Below, one piece after another: positions 50,107 through 57,368 of a stretch of 64,000 nt of DNA. The stretch is from the NCBI GenBank assembly GCA_001567485.1, contig JZRA01000016.1, positions 1-64,000 on the forward strand. The letters are read 5' to 3'. A program made the translations under genes and the position numbers. The notes under the pieces are model-generated. The model was not told the origin of the DNA, searched no databases, and was given only the letters and a program-made list of their open reading frames with translations. How positions within the stretch are numbered: position 1 is the first letter of the stretch; the number at the start of each line of letters is the position of its first letter. This stretch comes from Chloroflexi bacterium OLB13 (GTDB taxonomy: Bacteria; Chloroflexota; Anaerolineae; Aggregatilineales; Phototrophicaceae).

Positions 50107-51063
50107 TCAATTCTGGGCCTGTGGATCGAGGCTGGCCCAATAGATTTCCGGCCTGAACAGCGTGTGAACGAAAATGCGCCGATCCTCGGAGATGGTGAGA
50201 CCGGCTAGCGGCGCCGACAGATCGGTGTATAACACAAGCTCCACCTGATCGTTATCACAGCCACCATTCTCGGCGCACTCACCGGGCATCACCCGCCCAA
50301 CAACGCCGCGCACCCCGATGGCGTAGGCAAAGTACAGATAGCCGTCAGACCCCATCGTGATATTCGCCACGTTTTGCAGTCCGCGCACCAGCGGCTGCAT
50401 GACGGCCTCACTTCCGCTCTCGACGGCTTCACGATCCAGCCACTCGATCGCTCTGCGCGAACTGCCGCTGTTGGCGACGTACACACGCTCATCATCCACC
50501 GTCACGCCGGTCGGCGAGCGCAGTTCAGCGGCAATCGTCGTGACCTCCCCCGTGCGCGTCACCCGCATCAACGTATTCGCGCCCAAACTGGTCATCAGGA
50601 ACGAGTCGTCGTCGAACACCGTGATTCCCCACGGCGTTTCGAGGTCACTGGCCGACGGCTTTGGAGAACGCATCTGATCGACTTCAAGCAAGCGACTGGT
50701 GTCGCTATCCGGCACCCATATCCGGGGGCGATCCGACGTGCCCTGCTCGACGACAAGGGTATGACTATTACGAACGCCGCTGATGAACGTCTCGGTCGAG
50801 CCAGTCATACTGTCGACTTCGTAGATCGTCCAATCCCCCGTGCAGATGACGTACAGAAAGCCGTTAAACCACTGCATGCCGTTCGGACGCTGCACGTTTC
50901 CCGTAATGACGGTCAGGTCTTCTTGCGTTAGTACCTCGAATGGCGCTTCGGTCTGTGCATTCCCAGACTCGACCGTTGTCGTTTCGGTTGGTGTAACTAC
51001 AGGTGAAGGCGTCGTTTGATACAGGGCCGCGAGAAACGCAGCGATAACCCCTAGGATCACCAT
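50107..51063 (-). CDS. Extracytoplasmic SMP-30/NHL-like beta-propeller protein
   Basis: A 318-residue protein with an N-terminal hydrophobic signal anchor (about 1-15) and a Thr/Pro/Glu linker. The remainder is a six-bladed propeller of the SMP-30/NHL type: VQRPNGMQWFNGFLYV, TPWGITVFDDDSFL, SPTGVTVDDERVYVANS and VANITMGSDGYLYF. No catalytic residues can be assigned. It is the last gene of the leftward unit decarboxylase-site-2 protease-HEAT-propeller, 17 bases after the HEAT gene. The start ATG follows AGAGGAG. Confidence 0.8.
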   Translation of the reverse strand: MVILGVIAAFLAALYQTTPSPVVTPTETTTVESGNAQTEAPFEVLTQEDLTVITGNVQRPNGMQWFNGFLYVICTGDWTIYEVDSMTGSTETFISGVRNSHTLVVEQGTSDRPRIWVPDSDTSRLLEVDQMRSPKPSASDLETPWGITVFDDDSFLMTSLGANTLMRVTRTGEVTTIAAELRSPTGVTVDDERVYVANSGSSRRAIEWLDREAVESGSEAVMQPLVRGLQNVANITMGSDGYLYFAYAIGVRGVVGRVMPGECAENGGCDNDQVELVLYTDLSAPLAGLTISEDRRIFVHTLFRPEIYWASLDPQAQN

Positions 51064-51080
51064 TCAGTCTGGCTCCTCTG

Positions 51081-52061
51081 TTACTTGTCGTCCGACGCAT
51101 CGAATCCGGGAATCATGCCATCGGCAGCATTTGCGCTGTCTAGCGCGTCTTCGATGACGTCAAGCAGATCGTCGTCCTCATCTGCGCTCGCGCGCTCGGC
51201 AAGGGCTTCAAGCACTCGGATAGCCTCTTTGCCGCCGATCTCTCCCAGCGACCAGATCGCTGCTCCGGCGAGCTGTCGTTCTTCTGCGAGCGCGATCTCC
51301 GACAGCAGGCGAACGGCTTCGGTAAGCTCAAGCTCGCCGGCAGCACGCGCCGCTTCGAACCGATCCTCAATTGTTCCGCGTTCCAGTTCGTGCAGCACAT
51401 GATCACGCCAGCGCGAATCGCTGCTTGCGCCCATCGCAAAGATCGACGCGGTCTTGAGCACCGGCTCACCAGATTCGTACGCTTTCAGGATTTGTTGAGG
51501 AACCTGCGGATGGCTGCTGTAACCCAGCGATTCAATCGCGCGTGTCCGTGCAAGTAGACTGTCGTCGCTCAACACTACGTGTAGCAGATAGTCAACAATC
51601 GCGTCGTTGAGCGCGGTGTCGAGCTTGTCAAGTTCACCTTCGAGAACGAAAGTTCCCAGCGCACGAATAGCGGCAGCGCGAACAATCTCCGCCTCGTCGT
51701 TTTGGGCCATATCAAGAAGCAGCGCGGCATGGCGGCCGCTCGTTACATGCACACACAGATCGATCGCGAGACTGCGGATATCCGCGTCATGATCGTCCAG
51801 CGCCATGATGCCGAGCAGCGAAAAATCGGTGGCAAAGTCCGATTCGCCGGCTTCGATGAGCGCGGTCATCAGATCGCGCTTTACCTCTACCGACAACGAC
51901 TCCCAAACCGGGTACATGTCGATGATCTGCGAGGGAAGCAGTTCGCTTAGCCCCTGCACGATCACTGGAGGGATCATCTGCCCCGGTTCAAGCTGCACGA
52001 CCAGCGCGAGTGTTTGTGTGAAATTAGGCCCAACCGGGCGGATTTCGTCTTTCAGTCCCAT
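51081..52061 (-). CDS. HEAT-repeat protein
   Basis: A 326-residue all-helical protein with HEAT/PBS-lyase-like repeats: EIVRAAAIRALGTFV, RTRAIESLGYSSHPQV, LAGAAIWSLGEIGGKEAIRVLEAL (in part AAIWSLGEIGGKEA). Its first 80 residues differ from the repeats. It is acidic and cytoplasmic. HEAT proteins are scaffolds; no partner is evident, but it lies nine bases after the site-2 protease gene and 17 before the propeller gene, so these three are probably made together. Confidence 0.87.
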   Translation of the reverse strand: MGLKDEIRPVGPNFTQTLALVVQLEPGQMIPPVIVQGLSELLPSQIIDMYPVWESLSVEVKRDLMTALIEAGESDFATDFSLLGIMALDDHDADIRSLAIDLCVHVTSGRHAALLLDMAQNDEAEIVRAAAIRALGTFVLEGELDKLDTALNDAIVDYLLHVVLSDDSLLARTRAIESLGYSSHPQVPQQILKAYESGEPVLKTASIFAMGASSDSRWRDHVLHELERGTIEDRFEAARAAGELELTEAVRLLSEIALAEERQLAGAAIWSLGEIGGKEAIRVLEALAERASADEDDDLLDVIEDALDSANAADGMIPGFDASDDK

Positions 52062-52070
52062 TCTGTCGTT

Positions 52071-53555
52071 CTACCTCGGAAGTAGGTTGAGTATGGGGTC
52101 GCGGATATCCTGTACGATGACCACGATCCCGATTGCGAGCAGGAAGAGCATCCCGATTATCATAATCGCTTCCTCGCGGCGCTGCGACAGCGGCTTACCG
52201 CGCAGAATTTCGATCACGATGAACAGGATTCGGCCCCCATCCAACGGCGGCAGTGGCAGCAAATTCGTCAGGCCGAGGGCGATATTGACCAACGCGACAA
52301 AACTGAGGATGCGCGTTGGCGAGCCGGTCTCGATGCTGTCTTGGAGGAAGGAGCCGCCGATCTGGCTAATGCCTAGGATGCTGATTACACGGCCTTCCTC
52401 AGGCGCGGCAGTACCTGACAGCAGCCGCGCTGGAAGACCGAGGATCGCATCAAGAACGTTGCGAATTTCGGAGACACCATAGGCGATTGCCTCTGGCAGC
52501 GCCAAAGGCACGCTCTTCGTTAGTGGGCCGGCCGAATAGAGGCTTGCGCCCAATCCCGTGGAAAACACGTCTACCGTCACTCCCGCACCGAGATATCCCT
52601 GTCCGGGCGCAGGGTTGATACGCGGTGTGACCTCAAGCGTTACCTCGGCGTCGCCCCGAACCACGGTCAGCGGCACGGCTGAACCCGCGCTCTCTTCGTT
52701 AATCTCCTGAAGGATGCGGAATGGATCGCTGCTCGTTTGCAAATCGACCCCGCCGATCCCAATAATCGCATCTCTGAGCTGCAGCCCTGCCATATACGCG
52801 GGCGAGTTGAGCTGGATCGATTCGACCACAAGCCGGCTTCGAAAGTCTCGAAGCGCCGCACGCTGCTCAGGGCTGAAGGTCAGTTCGATCTCACGACGTT
52901 CAAACGGCCCATCATCGACCGGACGTAGCAAGACACCCAATACGACGGGCTGAGTCTCCGATTCGACGGCGGTCAAGAGATCATCTAACGACTGATATGG
53001 CGCTCCGTTCACCGTCTCGATGACGAACTCTTGCCCGCCAGCAATTGCGTAAAGCGGGCTTTCAGAAGTCACGTTTCCCACGACGTACGCCTCGCCAATC
53101 GGTTGATCGACACCAATCAAGCCGATGACCACAAACACTAAGAGCGCCGCTAGGACGTTCGCAATCGCCCCTGCTGCCATGAACACGATCCGGCTTAGGG
53201 GCTTGGCTTCGTTTACAGTCCGGATCTTGGCAGGCATCCGGCCCGGCTCTAGTGCTGCAAGCTCTGCACGCGCGGCCTCAGTCTCCGCTTCGCTCAGAGT
53301 CTTGATCATGTCCTCGCCAAGCGGCCGGACAAACCCGCCTAGTGGGATCAAGTTGAGCGTGAAATCGGTCTCGCGCCACCGGAACAGCCGCGCAATTTTC
53401 GGCGGGTATCCAATCCCGAACTCGAGGATCGTGATACCGACTGCCTTTGCTGCGAGCAGATGTCCAAACTCATGCACGATCACCGCTGGGATCAACACAA
53501 GCCCGAACGCCACCAGTGACGATAGAAGGTCGCTTTTGAGGAGAAAATCAAACAT
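52071..53555 (-). CDS. Site-2 (M50, RseP-like) membrane protease
   Basis: A 494-residue intramembrane metalloprotease. The zinc motif is IVHEFGHLLAAKAVG in the first helix, and the third metal ligand lies in LPLPPLDGGRIL near residue 450. Four or more membrane helices and two PDZ-like regions between them fit RseP. A long central insert (about 90-330) has segments QLRDAIIGIGG and RDFRSRLVVES. Such proteases cut anti-sigma factors or signal peptides in the membrane. The neighbours are a HEAT protein and an external propeller. The isoprenoid decarboxylase gene ends 104 bases upstream, so it may not be on the same transcript. Confidence 0.9.
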   Translation of the reverse strand: MFDFLLKSDLLSSLVAFGLVLIPAVIVHEFGHLLAAKAVGITILEFGIGYPPKIARLFRWRETDFTLNLIPLGGFVRPLGEDMIKTLSEAETEAARAELAALEPGRMPAKIRTVNEAKPLSRIVFMAAGAIANVLAALLVFVVIGLIGVDQPIGEAYVVGNVTSESPLYAIAGGQEFVIETVNGAPYQSLDDLLTAVESETQPVVLGVLLRPVDDGPFERREIELTFSPEQRAALRDFRSRLVVESIQLNSPAYMAGLQLRDAIIGIGGVDLQTSSDPFRILQEINEESAGSAVPLTVVRGDAEVTLEVTPRINPAPGQGYLGAGVTVDVFSTGLGASLYSAGPLTKSVPLALPEAIAYGVSEIRNVLDAILGLPARLLSGTAAPEEGRVISILGISQIGGSFLQDSIETGSPTRILSFVALVNIALGLTNLLPLPPLDGGRILFIVIEILRGKPLSQRREEAIMIIGMLFLLAIGIVVIVQDIRDPILNLLPR

Positions 53556-53659
53556 GGACAGACCTGTGGCGGTAAGCTGCCTTTCTGTGATCGGTGCACG
53601 AAGTATACCGGAACAATCGGCTGACTCGTGCGTGAGATCCCCATACGTTCATCGGTTGT

Positions 53660-54655
53660 TCAGCCTACGACCAATGCGGGGCCACCTGCGCCAGCCCGAA
53701 GTGTTGTGTGTACGCATCCGAGGGATCTTACGCGGCTCTCGACTTCGTCCGCATCCTCCGATGTCGTGATGCAGTGTACATTTGGCCCAGCATCGAGCGT
53801 GTAGCACACATTCAACCCTTCCGCTCGCCAACGCCGGACAGCCGACATAAGTTCAAGCGAACCGGGCAGCCAATAAAACAACGGCGGAGTGCTGGTCATC
53901 ATCACTGCGTGCATCATATCGGAGTCATGCTCCACGACTCGTGCGAGCCGCGAAAAGTCACGGTCAAGCAGGGCTGCACGGCATATATCGATCCTACTGG
54001 TCGCCGTTGCAACACGCTCTCTCTGAAACTCGCTGGTCGATGCAACAGCATGGCCCTCACGTGATCCAACGTCCTTGTGAACTTCAGAAACCACCGCAAC
54101 GACGTCGACGATATCCCAGTGATCCGGCCCAGCGATGCTGAACGCAAACGACGACTGATGGGTTCCGCCGGCTGCCCACTCTACATATCCGCCCGGCACA
54201 GACCGCGACGCAGAACCCGATCCTAGCCGCGCAAGGGCGCTCAGTTCGTGTTCCGGTAACTCAAGGCCTGCGGCGGAAACTGCCGCAACGGTCAGCGCAG
54301 CAAACGACGATGCGGACGATGCGATTCCCGCGCCCATCGGGAAGTTGTTCCGCGACTCCACCTCTACTTTACCCGTCAGCCCAAGCCGTTCACGCAGTTG
54401 GTCGACATGGCGGACGACGCGATCCAGCGCCGGGCCGGTGGTCGGCTGTCCATTGAGGATCAGACGATCGCGATCCGCGTCATTGAACCACGTTACCCGC
54501 GTTTCGGTGTATAGACCGTCGAGGTTCATGCTGAGTGAGCCATTTGACGGGATGCGAAGTCGCTCGTCGGCATTGCCCCAGTATTTGATAAACGCGATAT
54601 TTGGATGAGCACGCGCGATCGCGGTACCGTTCACTGCAACCAATTCCCTAGACAA
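53660..54655 (-). CDS. Mevalonate-(di)phosphate decarboxylase family protein, probably phosphomevalonate decarboxylase
   Basis: A 331-residue GHMP-fold decarboxylase. Family motifs are IAFIKYWGNADERLRIP, the ATP-loop FPMGAGIASSASSFAA, SGSASRSVPGGYVEW and the catalytic Asp in TLDAGPNVH. Classical diphosphomevalonate decarboxylases usually read KYWGK where this reads KYWGN. The cluster has mevalonate kinase and isopentenyl phosphate kinase, and no phosphomevalonate kinase is visible, which supports decarboxylation of mevalonate 5-phosphate as known for Roseiflexus. Substrate choice is inference; a classical mevalonate diphosphate decarboxylase is the alternative. It diverges from the rightward isoprenoid genes. 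Confidence 0.85.
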   Translation of the reverse strand: MSRELVAVNGTAIARAHPNIAFIKYWGNADERLRIPSNGSLSMNLDGLYTETRVTWFNDADRDRLILNGQPTTGPALDRVVRHVDQLRERLGLTGKVEVESRNNFPMGAGIASSASSFAALTVAAVSAAGLELPEHELSALARLGSGSASRSVPGGYVEWAAGGTHQSSFAFSIAGPDHWDIVDVVAVVSEVHKDVGSREGHAVASTSEFQRERVATATSRIDICRAALLDRDFSRLARVVEHDSDMMHAVMMTSTPPLFYWLPGSLELMSAVRRWRAEGLNVCYTLDAGPNVHCITTSEDADEVESRVRSLGCVHTTLRAGAGGPALVVG

Positions 54656-54670
54656 GACGAAACGTCAGCA

Positions 54671-54698
54671 TTGTACCGGAATCGCCCTCAGATATAAT
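54671..54698 (+). promoter_or_regulatory. Predicted sigma-70 promoter of the rightward isoprenoid genes
   Basis: TTGTAC (54671-54676) and consensus TATAAT (54693-54698) are 16 bases apart, 42 bases before the start at 54741. Confidence 0.65.
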
Positions 54699-54740
54699 CC
54701 CTTTCTGATAAAGCGCTCGATACCGCGAGAGGATCACCGG

Positions 54741-55631
54741 TTGCATGTCCTGATTGCACTGATTCGAACGATGCGACCCAAGCAGTGGACGAAGAACGTC
54801 CTGTTTGTGTATCCCGCATTGATTGCCGATGGTCAGCTGTTTCTGGCCGTTCCGTTTCTACGCGCAACCGCAGCATGCGCATTGTTGTGCTTGATCGCGG
54901 GCGCGGTCTACATCCTCAACGATCTGGTTGACATCGAAAGCGACCGGCAGCATCCACGCAAACGACTGCGCCCCCTACCCTCCGGCGAACTTCCAATGTC
55001 GATTGCGCGCGGGGCCGCGGTTTTGTTTCCGCTTGCCGGGTTGATCTGCGCCTATTTAATCGACTGGCGCTTGAGCGTTGTCCTCGGCACGTACTATGTC
55101 CTTCAGTTGTTCTACATCTTCTGGCTCAAGCACGTCGTGCTCGTCGATATCATGGCGCTAACGGCCGGATTCGTCCTGCGCGTCGTGGCCGGCGTTGTGG
55201 TCATCGAAGTCACTCAGTTCTCGCCATGGCTGTATGTGTGCATGGGCCTACTCGCGATGTTTCTTTCCGTCGCCAAGCGGCGGCAAGAACTGATTCTCTT
55301 GGGGGATGATGCGGCCGCCATCAGAAAGACATACGGCGACTATTCGCTGCCCCTTCTCGACGAACTTCTCCGAATCACGGCGACAAGCACATTTATCGCG
55401 TACACGCTGTACACAATCGAGACACCATCGCCTTTACTGGCGCGAACCAACCTCGCGCTCGCCACAGTGCCTTTCGTGATGTACGGCTTGTTCCGTTACC
55501 TTTACCTCATCTACGTCAGGGGGGAGAGCGCGCCGCCTGACGAGGTTCTGCTCAAAGACCGCGCGCTCCAAATCGATATCGCGCTGTATGCAGTGGCGTT
55601 CGCCATCATCCTCTATGTCGTCCCTCAGTGA
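54741..55631 (+). CDS. UbiA-family decaprenyl-phosphate phosphoribosyltransferase-like protein
   Basis: A 296-residue polytopic prenyltransferase with about eight or nine helices. The aspartate-rich motif is ILNDLVDIESDRQHPRKRLRP, and the second motif region is YGDYSLPLLDELLRI. The N-terminus RTMRPKQWTKNVLFVYP is typical of the DPPR-synthase branch, which moves 5-phosphoribosyl onto a polyprenyl phosphate to make the precursor of arabinofuranose donors. The start is TTG 54741, with GAGAGG upstream. It leads the rightward run prenyltransferase-mevalonate kinase-IPK, with 17 bases of overlap to the kinase. Other UbiA substrates cannot be excluded. Confidence 0.86.
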   Translation: MHVLIALIRTMRPKQWTKNVLFVYPALIADGQLFLAVPFLRATAACALLCLIAGAVYILNDLVDIESDRQHPRKRLRPLPSGELPMSIARGAAVLFPLAGLICAYLIDWRLSVVLGTYYVLQLFYIFWLKHVVLVDIMALTAGFVLRVVAGVVVIEVTQFSPWLYVCMGLLAMFLSVAKRRQELILLGDDAAAIRKTYGDYSLPLLDELLRITATSTFIAYTLYTIETPSPLLARTNLALATVPFVMYGLFRYLYLIYVRGESAPPDEVLLKDRALQIDIALYAVAFAIILYVVPQ

Positions 55632-56574
55632 GTCCACGCCTGCCAGCGCGCCCGGCAAGGTGATCCTGCTGGGTGAACATGCCGTCGTATACGGTCAGCC
55701 AGCGATTGCGTTTCCGGTGTCGACGCTGCGGACACGCGTAACCATCCGTGACGCCGCTCAACTTCGCGTTACGTCCGCAATTTGGGATCGCACCTATCAG
55801 ATCGCGGACGCCGCGATGCATGCTGATCCAGTGTATTCAGTCCTCAGCCTGACAGCCGAAGCGCTTGGCGTTCCTATCCCGATTCGCCACTACAACATCG
55901 AATCCGACATTCCGGCGGCCAGTGGCCTCGGCAGTGGCGCGGCCCTTTCAGCAGCGCTTGGACGTGCCGTAGCCGCAGCAGCAGGACTCAACCTCGATCC
56001 CGCGGTGCTCAATAGTGTCGTGTTTGAGGTCGAACGTCTTTATCACGGGACACCGAGCGGCATTGATAATACTGTCGTTGTGTATGAAAAGCCGGTCTAC
56101 TTCGTGCGCGGCCACCCGATCCAGCTTCTGCATGTGCAGGCCGAGTACACGTTCGTCGTGGCCGATACCGGCATCCGCGCCCCCACGCGGGAATCCGTCG
56201 CCGATGTCCGCGCGTTAATGGTGACACAACCTGCTGCAACCACGCGGGCCGTTTCCGCGATAGGAGATCTTGTCGCACGCACGCGTGACGCGCTTGCAGT
56301 GGGCGATGTCACCGCCGTCGGGCGTTGTATGAACTTGAATCACACGCTGCTCCAGCAGCTTACCGTATCATCCCCGGAATTGGATCGGCTTATGCAGGTG
56401 GCAACCGACGCAGGCGCATTAGGAGCAAAGCTCTCAGGCGGCGGGCGCGGTGGAAACATGATCGCACTGGTAAACCCTGAAACCACTTCCACCATCGAGA
56501 TGGCACTGCGTGCGGCTGGAGCGGTACACACTTTTGTCACCGTGCTTCGTGCCGGAATGGAGACCGCGACGTAA
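55615..56574 (+). CDS. mvk: Mevalonate kinase
   Basis: A 319-residue GHMP kinase, phosphorylating mevalonate to mevalonate 5-phosphate. Motifs: ASAPGKVILLGEHAVVYGQPA-type N-terminus (GKVILLGEHAVVYG), the ATP loop IPAASGLGSGAALSAAL, GTPSGIDNTVVVY and the C-terminal KLSGGGRGGNMIAL. ATG 55615 gives the expected N-terminus; the upstream in-frame ATG at 55588 lies within the prenyltransferase gene. Its stop shares a base with the IPK start (TAATG), so the two kinases are translationally coupled. Confidence 0.93.
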   Translation: MSSLSESTPASAPGKVILLGEHAVVYGQPAIAFPVSTLRTRVTIRDAAQLRVTSAIWDRTYQIADAAMHADPVYSVLSLTAEALGVPIPIRHYNIESDIPAASGLGSGAALSAALGRAVAAAAGLNLDPAVLNSVVFEVERLYHGTPSGIDNTVVVYEKPVYFVRGHPIQLLHVQAEYTFVVADTGIRAPTRESVADVRALMVTQPAATTRAVSAIGDLVARTRDALAVGDVTAVGRCMNLNHTLLQQLTVSSPELDRLMQVATDAGALGAKLSGGGRGGNMIALVNPETTSTIEMALRAAGAVHTFVTVLRAGMETAT

Positions 56575-57368
56575 TGACGACTCTGCTCAAACTCGGCGGA
56601 TCGCTGATTACCGATAAGCGCGGGGAGAAAGCGTTCCGTCAAGACGTGATGCGCCGGATCGCCAACGAGGTCGAGCGTGCTGACAACCGTTCTCCGCAGC
56701 GGCTCGTGATCGGCCACGGCAGTGGATCGTTCGGGCATGTGCCGGCGAATAAATACGGCACGATCAACGGTGTGCATTCCGATGATGGGTGGCGCGGCTT
56801 CACGGAGGTCGCTCGTGTCGCATCCGAACTCAACGAACTCGTCACGGGGGAACTGTGGAATGCAGGCTTGCCAGCGATGCGGATCCAACCCTCCGCTTCG
56901 CTCATCGCGCATGATGGCGTGCCCGCGCAGATGGACGTAATGGCGATCAAAGCGGCGCTCGATCACGGCTTGATCCCGGTCGTCCACGGCGATGTGGCAT
57001 TTGATGACGTGCGCGGCGGGACGATCATCTCGACCGAGTCGCTGTTCACATACTTGGCCGGCAGGCTCACGGTGAGGTCGATCATCCTTGCCGGCGAGGT
57101 GCCGGGAGTGCTTGACGACTCCGGACGCGTCATCCCCCAGATCACGCCGGAGAGCGCAGCGACGATAGCGCACAATCTCGGCGGCAGCAGCGGAACCGAC
57201 GTCACAGGAGGGATGCTGACGAAGGTGACGGACATGCTCCGGCTCGTAATCCAGAATCCATCCATACGGATTCACATCATCAACGGGCTGGAAACCGACG
57301 CCGTATTGCATGCACTTCTCGGAGACTACAGCGGCGGCACGGTCATTCATGCCGGCTCAAACGCCTAG
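56574..57368 (+). CDS. ipk: Isopentenyl phosphate kinase
   Basis: A 264-residue amino-acid-kinase-fold enzyme that phosphorylates isopentenyl phosphate to IPP. N-terminal LLKLGGSLITDKRGEK and the IPK-specific glycine-rich segment VIGHGSGSFGHVPANKYG, with its catalytic histidine, separate it from glutamate or aspartate kinases. Further landmarks are VVHGDVAFDD and SGTDVTGGMLTKV. IPK is typical of the archaeal-type mevalonate pathway and is found in some Chloroflexota. The 3' end overlaps the convergent permease gene by 26 bases. Confidence 0.92.
   Translation: MTTLLKLGGSLITDKRGEKAFRQDVMRRIANEVERADNRSPQRLVIGHGSGSFGHVPANKYGTINGVHSDDGWRGFTEVARVASELNELVTGELWNAGLPAMRIQPSASLIAHDGVPAQMDVMAIKAALDHGLIPVVHGDVAFDDVRGGTIISTESLFTYLAGRLTVRSIILAGEVPGVLDDSGRVIPQITPESAATIAHNLGGSSGTDVTGGMLTKVTDMLRLVIQNPSIRIHIINGLETDAVLHALLGDYSGGTVIHAGSNA

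Follow-up and report, generated by a model that had tools for sequence, protein, structure and literature searches.

Within the window, that is, the whole 64,000-nucleotide stretch of DNA analysed here, a decarboxylase gene lies head-to-head with a plus-strand unit that runs from a UbiA-type prenyltransferase through mevalonate kinase to isopentenyl phosphate kinase (54741-57368). The features of the locus are as follows.

52071..53555, minus strand: M50 site-2 protease (RseP), directly downstream of the decarboxylase gene, a conserved neighbour and no pathway enzyme
53660..54655, minus strand: predicted phosphomevalonate decarboxylase (MPD, also written PMD), TTG start, 331 aa, with the GHMP fold and catalytic and specificity residues
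54656..54740, no strand: divergent intergenic region of 85 bp between the two transcription units, from the gene coordinates
54741..55631, plus strand: UbiA-family prenyltransferase (PF01040, 7e-21), nearest to decaprenyl-phosphate phosphoribosyltransferase
55588..56574, plus strand: mevalonate 5-kinase (MVK; TIGR00549, 253 bits, cut-off 163)
56574..57368, plus strand: isopentenyl phosphate kinase (IPK; NF040647, 182 bits, cut-off 120)

All four cluster genes are open frames with family matches far beyond chance in profile searches, confirming the mevalonate kinase, IPK and mevalonate-type decarboxylase that an earlier note, made from the sequence alone, had placed in divergent units. MVK, for which an ATG at 55615 is a possible alternative start, overlaps IPK by one base. 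IPK carries a GSGSFGH motif including the conserved His, and solved isopentenyl phosphate kinases are its nearest structures (best 3k4o, 1.9e-36). The RseP gene begins 104 bp downstream of the decarboxylase and is followed by a HEAT-repeat protein, while a convergent oligopeptide/nickel-type ABC transporter follows IPK. The same cluster order, bounded by the transporter at one end and by RseP and the HEAT protein at the other, could also be found at loci L003 and L004 and largely at L005 and L006, all of them from Chloroflexota MAGs mostly labelled Anaerolineae. The UbiA-family protein, whose best NCBIfam match is decaprenyl-phosphate phosphoribosyltransferase (222 bits), stands outside the mevalonate route proper and is likely a user of polyprenyl phosphate; its gene (54741-55631), which lies beside MVK also in L003-L006 and L045, suggests by its place in the mevalonate unit that these bacteria have a polyprenyl-phosphate sugar donor.

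The decarboxylase matched MVD-like_N (1.5e-56), MDD_C (7.9e-22) and TIGR01240 (259 bits). In the comparison with characterised enzymes that the earlier note had proposed, its top phmmer match in the PDB was 6n0x of Anaerolinea thermophila, gapless over 320 residues at 376 bits; the highest-scoring diphosphomevalonate decarboxylase (MDD), 2hk2, reached 219 bits and other MDDs no more. Of these two, 2hk2 is the S. aureus enzyme (PMC3857490), and 6n0x, though its PDB entry is titled diphosphomevalonate decarboxylase, is the A. thermophila PMD (PMC9254496). The query passes the cut-off of the MDD model TIGR01240 and falls under that of the NCBIfam MPD model NF040704 (205 bits, cut-off 475), so that standard annotation by TIGR01240 will misname such MPDs; for 53660-54655 it would say diphosphomevalonate decarboxylase. 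Weak scores against NF040847 (58 bits) and NF040848 (44 bits) hint at a Thermoplasma-type enzyme, either a mevalonate 3-kinase (M3K) or a bisphosphomevalonate decarboxylase, but they are far under the cut-offs of 560 and 440. Moreover, an ordinary mevalonate 5-kinase adjoins the gene, and the catalytic Asp, which M3K does not have (PMC9254496), is kept, making a Thermoplasma-type activity exceedingly improbable.

Catalytic Asp288 and substrate-binding Arg151 are both retained in the GHMP decarboxylase fold, and Asn28, Arg34 and His202 are identical to 6n0x, where MDDs carry Lys, Ile and Met. Asn28, the last residue of a KYWGN motif, aligns to Lys21 of the S. epidermidis MDD, an MDD/MPD discriminator in Table 4 of Dellas 2013 (PMC3857490). 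With MPDs defined by a non-Lys residue at that position and Arg or Thr at the Ile27 position, the enzyme falls among them, having Arg34 at the latter. His202, a PMD-type His at the MDD Met position, probably corresponds to the conserved PMD histidine named in PMC11052028. Ser occupies the Ser139, Ser141 and Ser192 positions, closer to haloarchaeal enzymes than to the Ala/Ser/Thr of Roseiflexus. Thomas reportedly described the A. thermophila phosphomevalonate decarboxylase in 2019 (PDB 6n0x and 6n0y; engineered 6n0z), and we take 6n0x to be this same enzyme. Engineered residues were read from the sequence differences between 6n0x and 6n0z: in the printed alignment, 6n0z has Lys for the Asn of KYWGN and Met for the His of GHALA. 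At both places the window decarboxylase keeps the native residue, Asn28 and His202.

The earlier note had further proposed that KYWGN, where classical enzymes read KYWGK, may mark the substrate switch. This holds in substance, given the Asn of the A. thermophila MPD and its replacement by Lys in 6n0z; nevertheless, residues other than Asn can also stand in for the Lys, and the KYWG[K/x] discriminator, like the alternative mevalonate pathway and its presence in Chloroflexota, was already published (PMC3857490; PMC11052028; reportedly also Thomas 2019). Among relatives from GTDB genomes (n=71), the Lys21 position is Asn in 67, Arg in 2, Asp in 1 and Lys in 1, and other Chloroflexota enzymes of IPK-bearing genomes also show Gln, Val and Asp. 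KYWGN as a unique MPD marker was thus too narrow and was dropped, Gln, Val, Asp and Leu also occurring in enzymes that accompany IPK. Judged from its sequence, the window decarboxylase probably prefers mevalonate 5-phosphate over the diphosphate.

Pathway membership was then weighed across the genome (4.22 Mb, 148 contigs, 95.5% complete). A PF00288 search returned four GHMP proteins, namely MVK, the decarboxylase, a galactokinase whose gene neighbours galT (contig C62) and a homoserine kinase encoded close to a threonine synthase-like gene (C28), the last two named from sequence and neighbours. None of the four is a phosphomevalonate kinase (PMK), and no PMK was detected in the window or in the rest of this 95.5% complete genome. 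The Gram-positive PMK model gave only sub-threshold matches over the genome, to MVK and the galactokinase; since no control genome passes its cut-off, more weight goes to the GHMP inventory. The earlier note had seen no PMK and had held that one elsewhere in the genome would refute its reading, and this observation was borne out, with every GHMP protein accounted for. The search for the DXP pathway that it had also called for found no DXR over cut-off in the genome, only weak fragments of 35-40 residues at C16:20204 and C127:4862, and no match for IspH. About 13 kb past IPK on the same contig, C16:70811-74334 holds an operon for HMG-CoA reductase (408 bits), a thiolase-domain protein and an archaeal-type HMG-CoA synthase (516 bits), and a type 2 IPP isomerase (Idi-2; 407 bits) is encoded on C37. 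IPK, the upper mevalonate enzymes and an IPP isomerase are therefore present next to an absent PMK and DXP pathway, and neither the Lys of KYWGK nor the PMK of the classical MDD pathway is found here. With HMGR, HMGS, thiolase and Idi-2 in place and no PMK, the isoprenoid pathway is predicted to have all its steps by the alternative route, whereas the classical one is incomplete.

In a classical pathway, the decarboxylase would act on mevalonate diphosphate supplied by an undetected PMK, and IPK would merely recycle isopentenyl phosphate. The automated assignment to the diphosphomevalonate decarboxylase family, over cut-off, would fit this, as would the additional PMD activity, that is, dual specificity, described for Chloroflexota enzymes (PMC11052028). 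However, none of the four GHMP proteins is a PMK, Asn stands in place of the diphosphate-binding Lys, Arg34 and His202 are of MPD type, and IPK occurs in every sampled Chloroflexota genome that has the decarboxylase, so that the classical pathway is highly unlikely here. A hidden PMK as its source of diphosphate was rejected on the GHMP inventory, in which the two other members are the galactokinase and the homoserine kinase; at the stated completeness a gap in the assembly could hide a PMK, but the independent lines of evidence agree. Some use of diphosphate by the decarboxylase is possible, and no enzyme making mevalonate diphosphate was found in the genome.

The co-occurrence was drawn from 121 Chloroflexota genomes, each 90% complete or better. 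The decarboxylase is present in 29 of them and IPK in all of these 29, with IPK lacking a decarboxylase in one further genome, which has 8% contamination. DXR, found in 90 of the 121, is absent from 28 of the 29 decarboxylase genomes, and the single overlap is a marginal 32-bit fragment (Fisher p 4e-27 for the decarboxylase with IPK and 6e-23 against DXR, both uncorrected for phylogeny). Thirteen genomes were reached through individual loci: ten have an Asn/Asp-type enzyme with IPK over cut-off, and three have a Lys/Arg-type enzyme without it (L063, L066 and L070), where a GHMP kinase partly similar to PMK models adjoins the decarboxylase. L063 (5843-6931) and L070 (6022-6999) are mevalonate clusters of Patescibacteria (Levyibacteriota, Gottesmanbacteria), whose decarboxylase homologues have Asn in place of the catalytic Asp (TxNTGQ vs TxDAGP) and Arg at the Lys21 position, with two MVK/PMK-like GHMP kinases alongside, and their genomes have no IPK over cut-off. 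L066 (4916-7005), from an Anaerolineae MAG, combines Lys in KYWGK with Asn at the Ile27 position, a Sulfolobales-like MDD pattern, next to a divergent GHMP kinase and with no IPK over cut-off in its genome, possibly a classical pathway inside Anaerolineae.

The gene neighbourhood offers a further observation. By a crude HExxH criterion, rseP lies directly downstream of MPD at 48 of 70 testable loci in the genome collection (window 52071-53660; L003-L073). These loci were chosen by similarity to the window enzyme and so favour Anaerolineae; when the phylum is sampled evenly, an M50 gene takes that place in 9 of 29. Among the testable Chloroflexota loci of MEP type (L109-L138), the criterion put rseP directly downstream of dxr at 28 of 29. 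For L109, at least, the call came from a spurious motif, but tblastn gave a match to RseP at the expected place there. Since M50 genes directly follow both, MPD seems to hold the position that dxr has elsewhere. It is conceivable, although somewhat short of an even chance, that in Anaerolineae the decarboxylase occupies the dxr slot of MEP-pathway Chloroflexota upstream of rseP, either through an in-place swap of routes or because rseP is co-regulated with isoprenoid supply under either route. HEAT-repeat and NHL-repeat proteins follow rseP on the same strand (window 50107-52061), and many Anaerolineae conserve the gene string MPD-M50-HEAT.

Taken together, it is reasonable to suggest, with a probability of about 0.95, that the cluster supplies the lower steps of the alternative mevalonate pathway of the haloarchaea/Chloroflexota type. 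Carbon would enter from acetyl-CoA through thiolase, archaeal-type HMG-CoA synthase and HMG-CoA reductase, and mevalonate kinase would yield mevalonate 5-phosphate. The decarboxylase could then use ATP to phosphorylate the 3-OH of mevalonate 5-phosphate, with elimination of phosphate and CO2 to give isopentenyl phosphate, which IPK would convert to IPP and the type 2 isomerase, encoded elsewhere in the genome, to DMAPP. The earlier note's proposal that the organism uses a mevalonate 5-phosphate decarboxylase plus IPK is supported as far as sequence goes, by the residues shared with 6n0x and the lack of detectable PMK, DXR and IspH, and both the flux in vivo through this route and the selectivity of the decarboxylase would follow this scheme.

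The alternative route was discovered in Chloroflexota in 2013, with MPD and IPK of R. castenholzii characterised (Dellas 2013, PMC3857490). Roseiflexus castenholzii likewise has IPK and no PMK and shares pathway and phylum with the window, but its decarboxylase is more distant, with Leu77 where the window enzyme has Asn, and Ala201 and Thr255 where it has Ser. The A. thermophila MPD is like the window enzyme in the Asn, Arg and His at the specificity positions and belongs to the same phylum, although the species differs; unlike the window cluster, most Anaerolineae relatives have MVK and IPK apart from the decarboxylase. The phosphomevalonate decarboxylase and IPK of Haloferax volcanii, as far as the account of VanNice 2014 in PMC9254496 goes, share the reaction order, whereas that system is archaeal and the window enzyme scores under the NF040704 cut-off. 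Classical bacterial MDDs (S. aureus 2hk2, E. faecalis 5v2l) share the fold and the catalytic Asp and Arg, but differ at the three discriminating positions, which read Lys, Ile and Met, and are partnered by PMK.

The cluster is a well-supported, ordinary further example of a known pathway, in which one lineage and the compact MPD/MVK/IPK arrangement are new. The bacteria known to make IPP via isopentenyl phosphate thereby gain an Anaerolineae-related lineage whose support across the genome is clean, and the full co-occurrence with IPK and near-full exclusion of DXR among the 121 genomes let the pathway be called in Chloroflexota by a simple rule.
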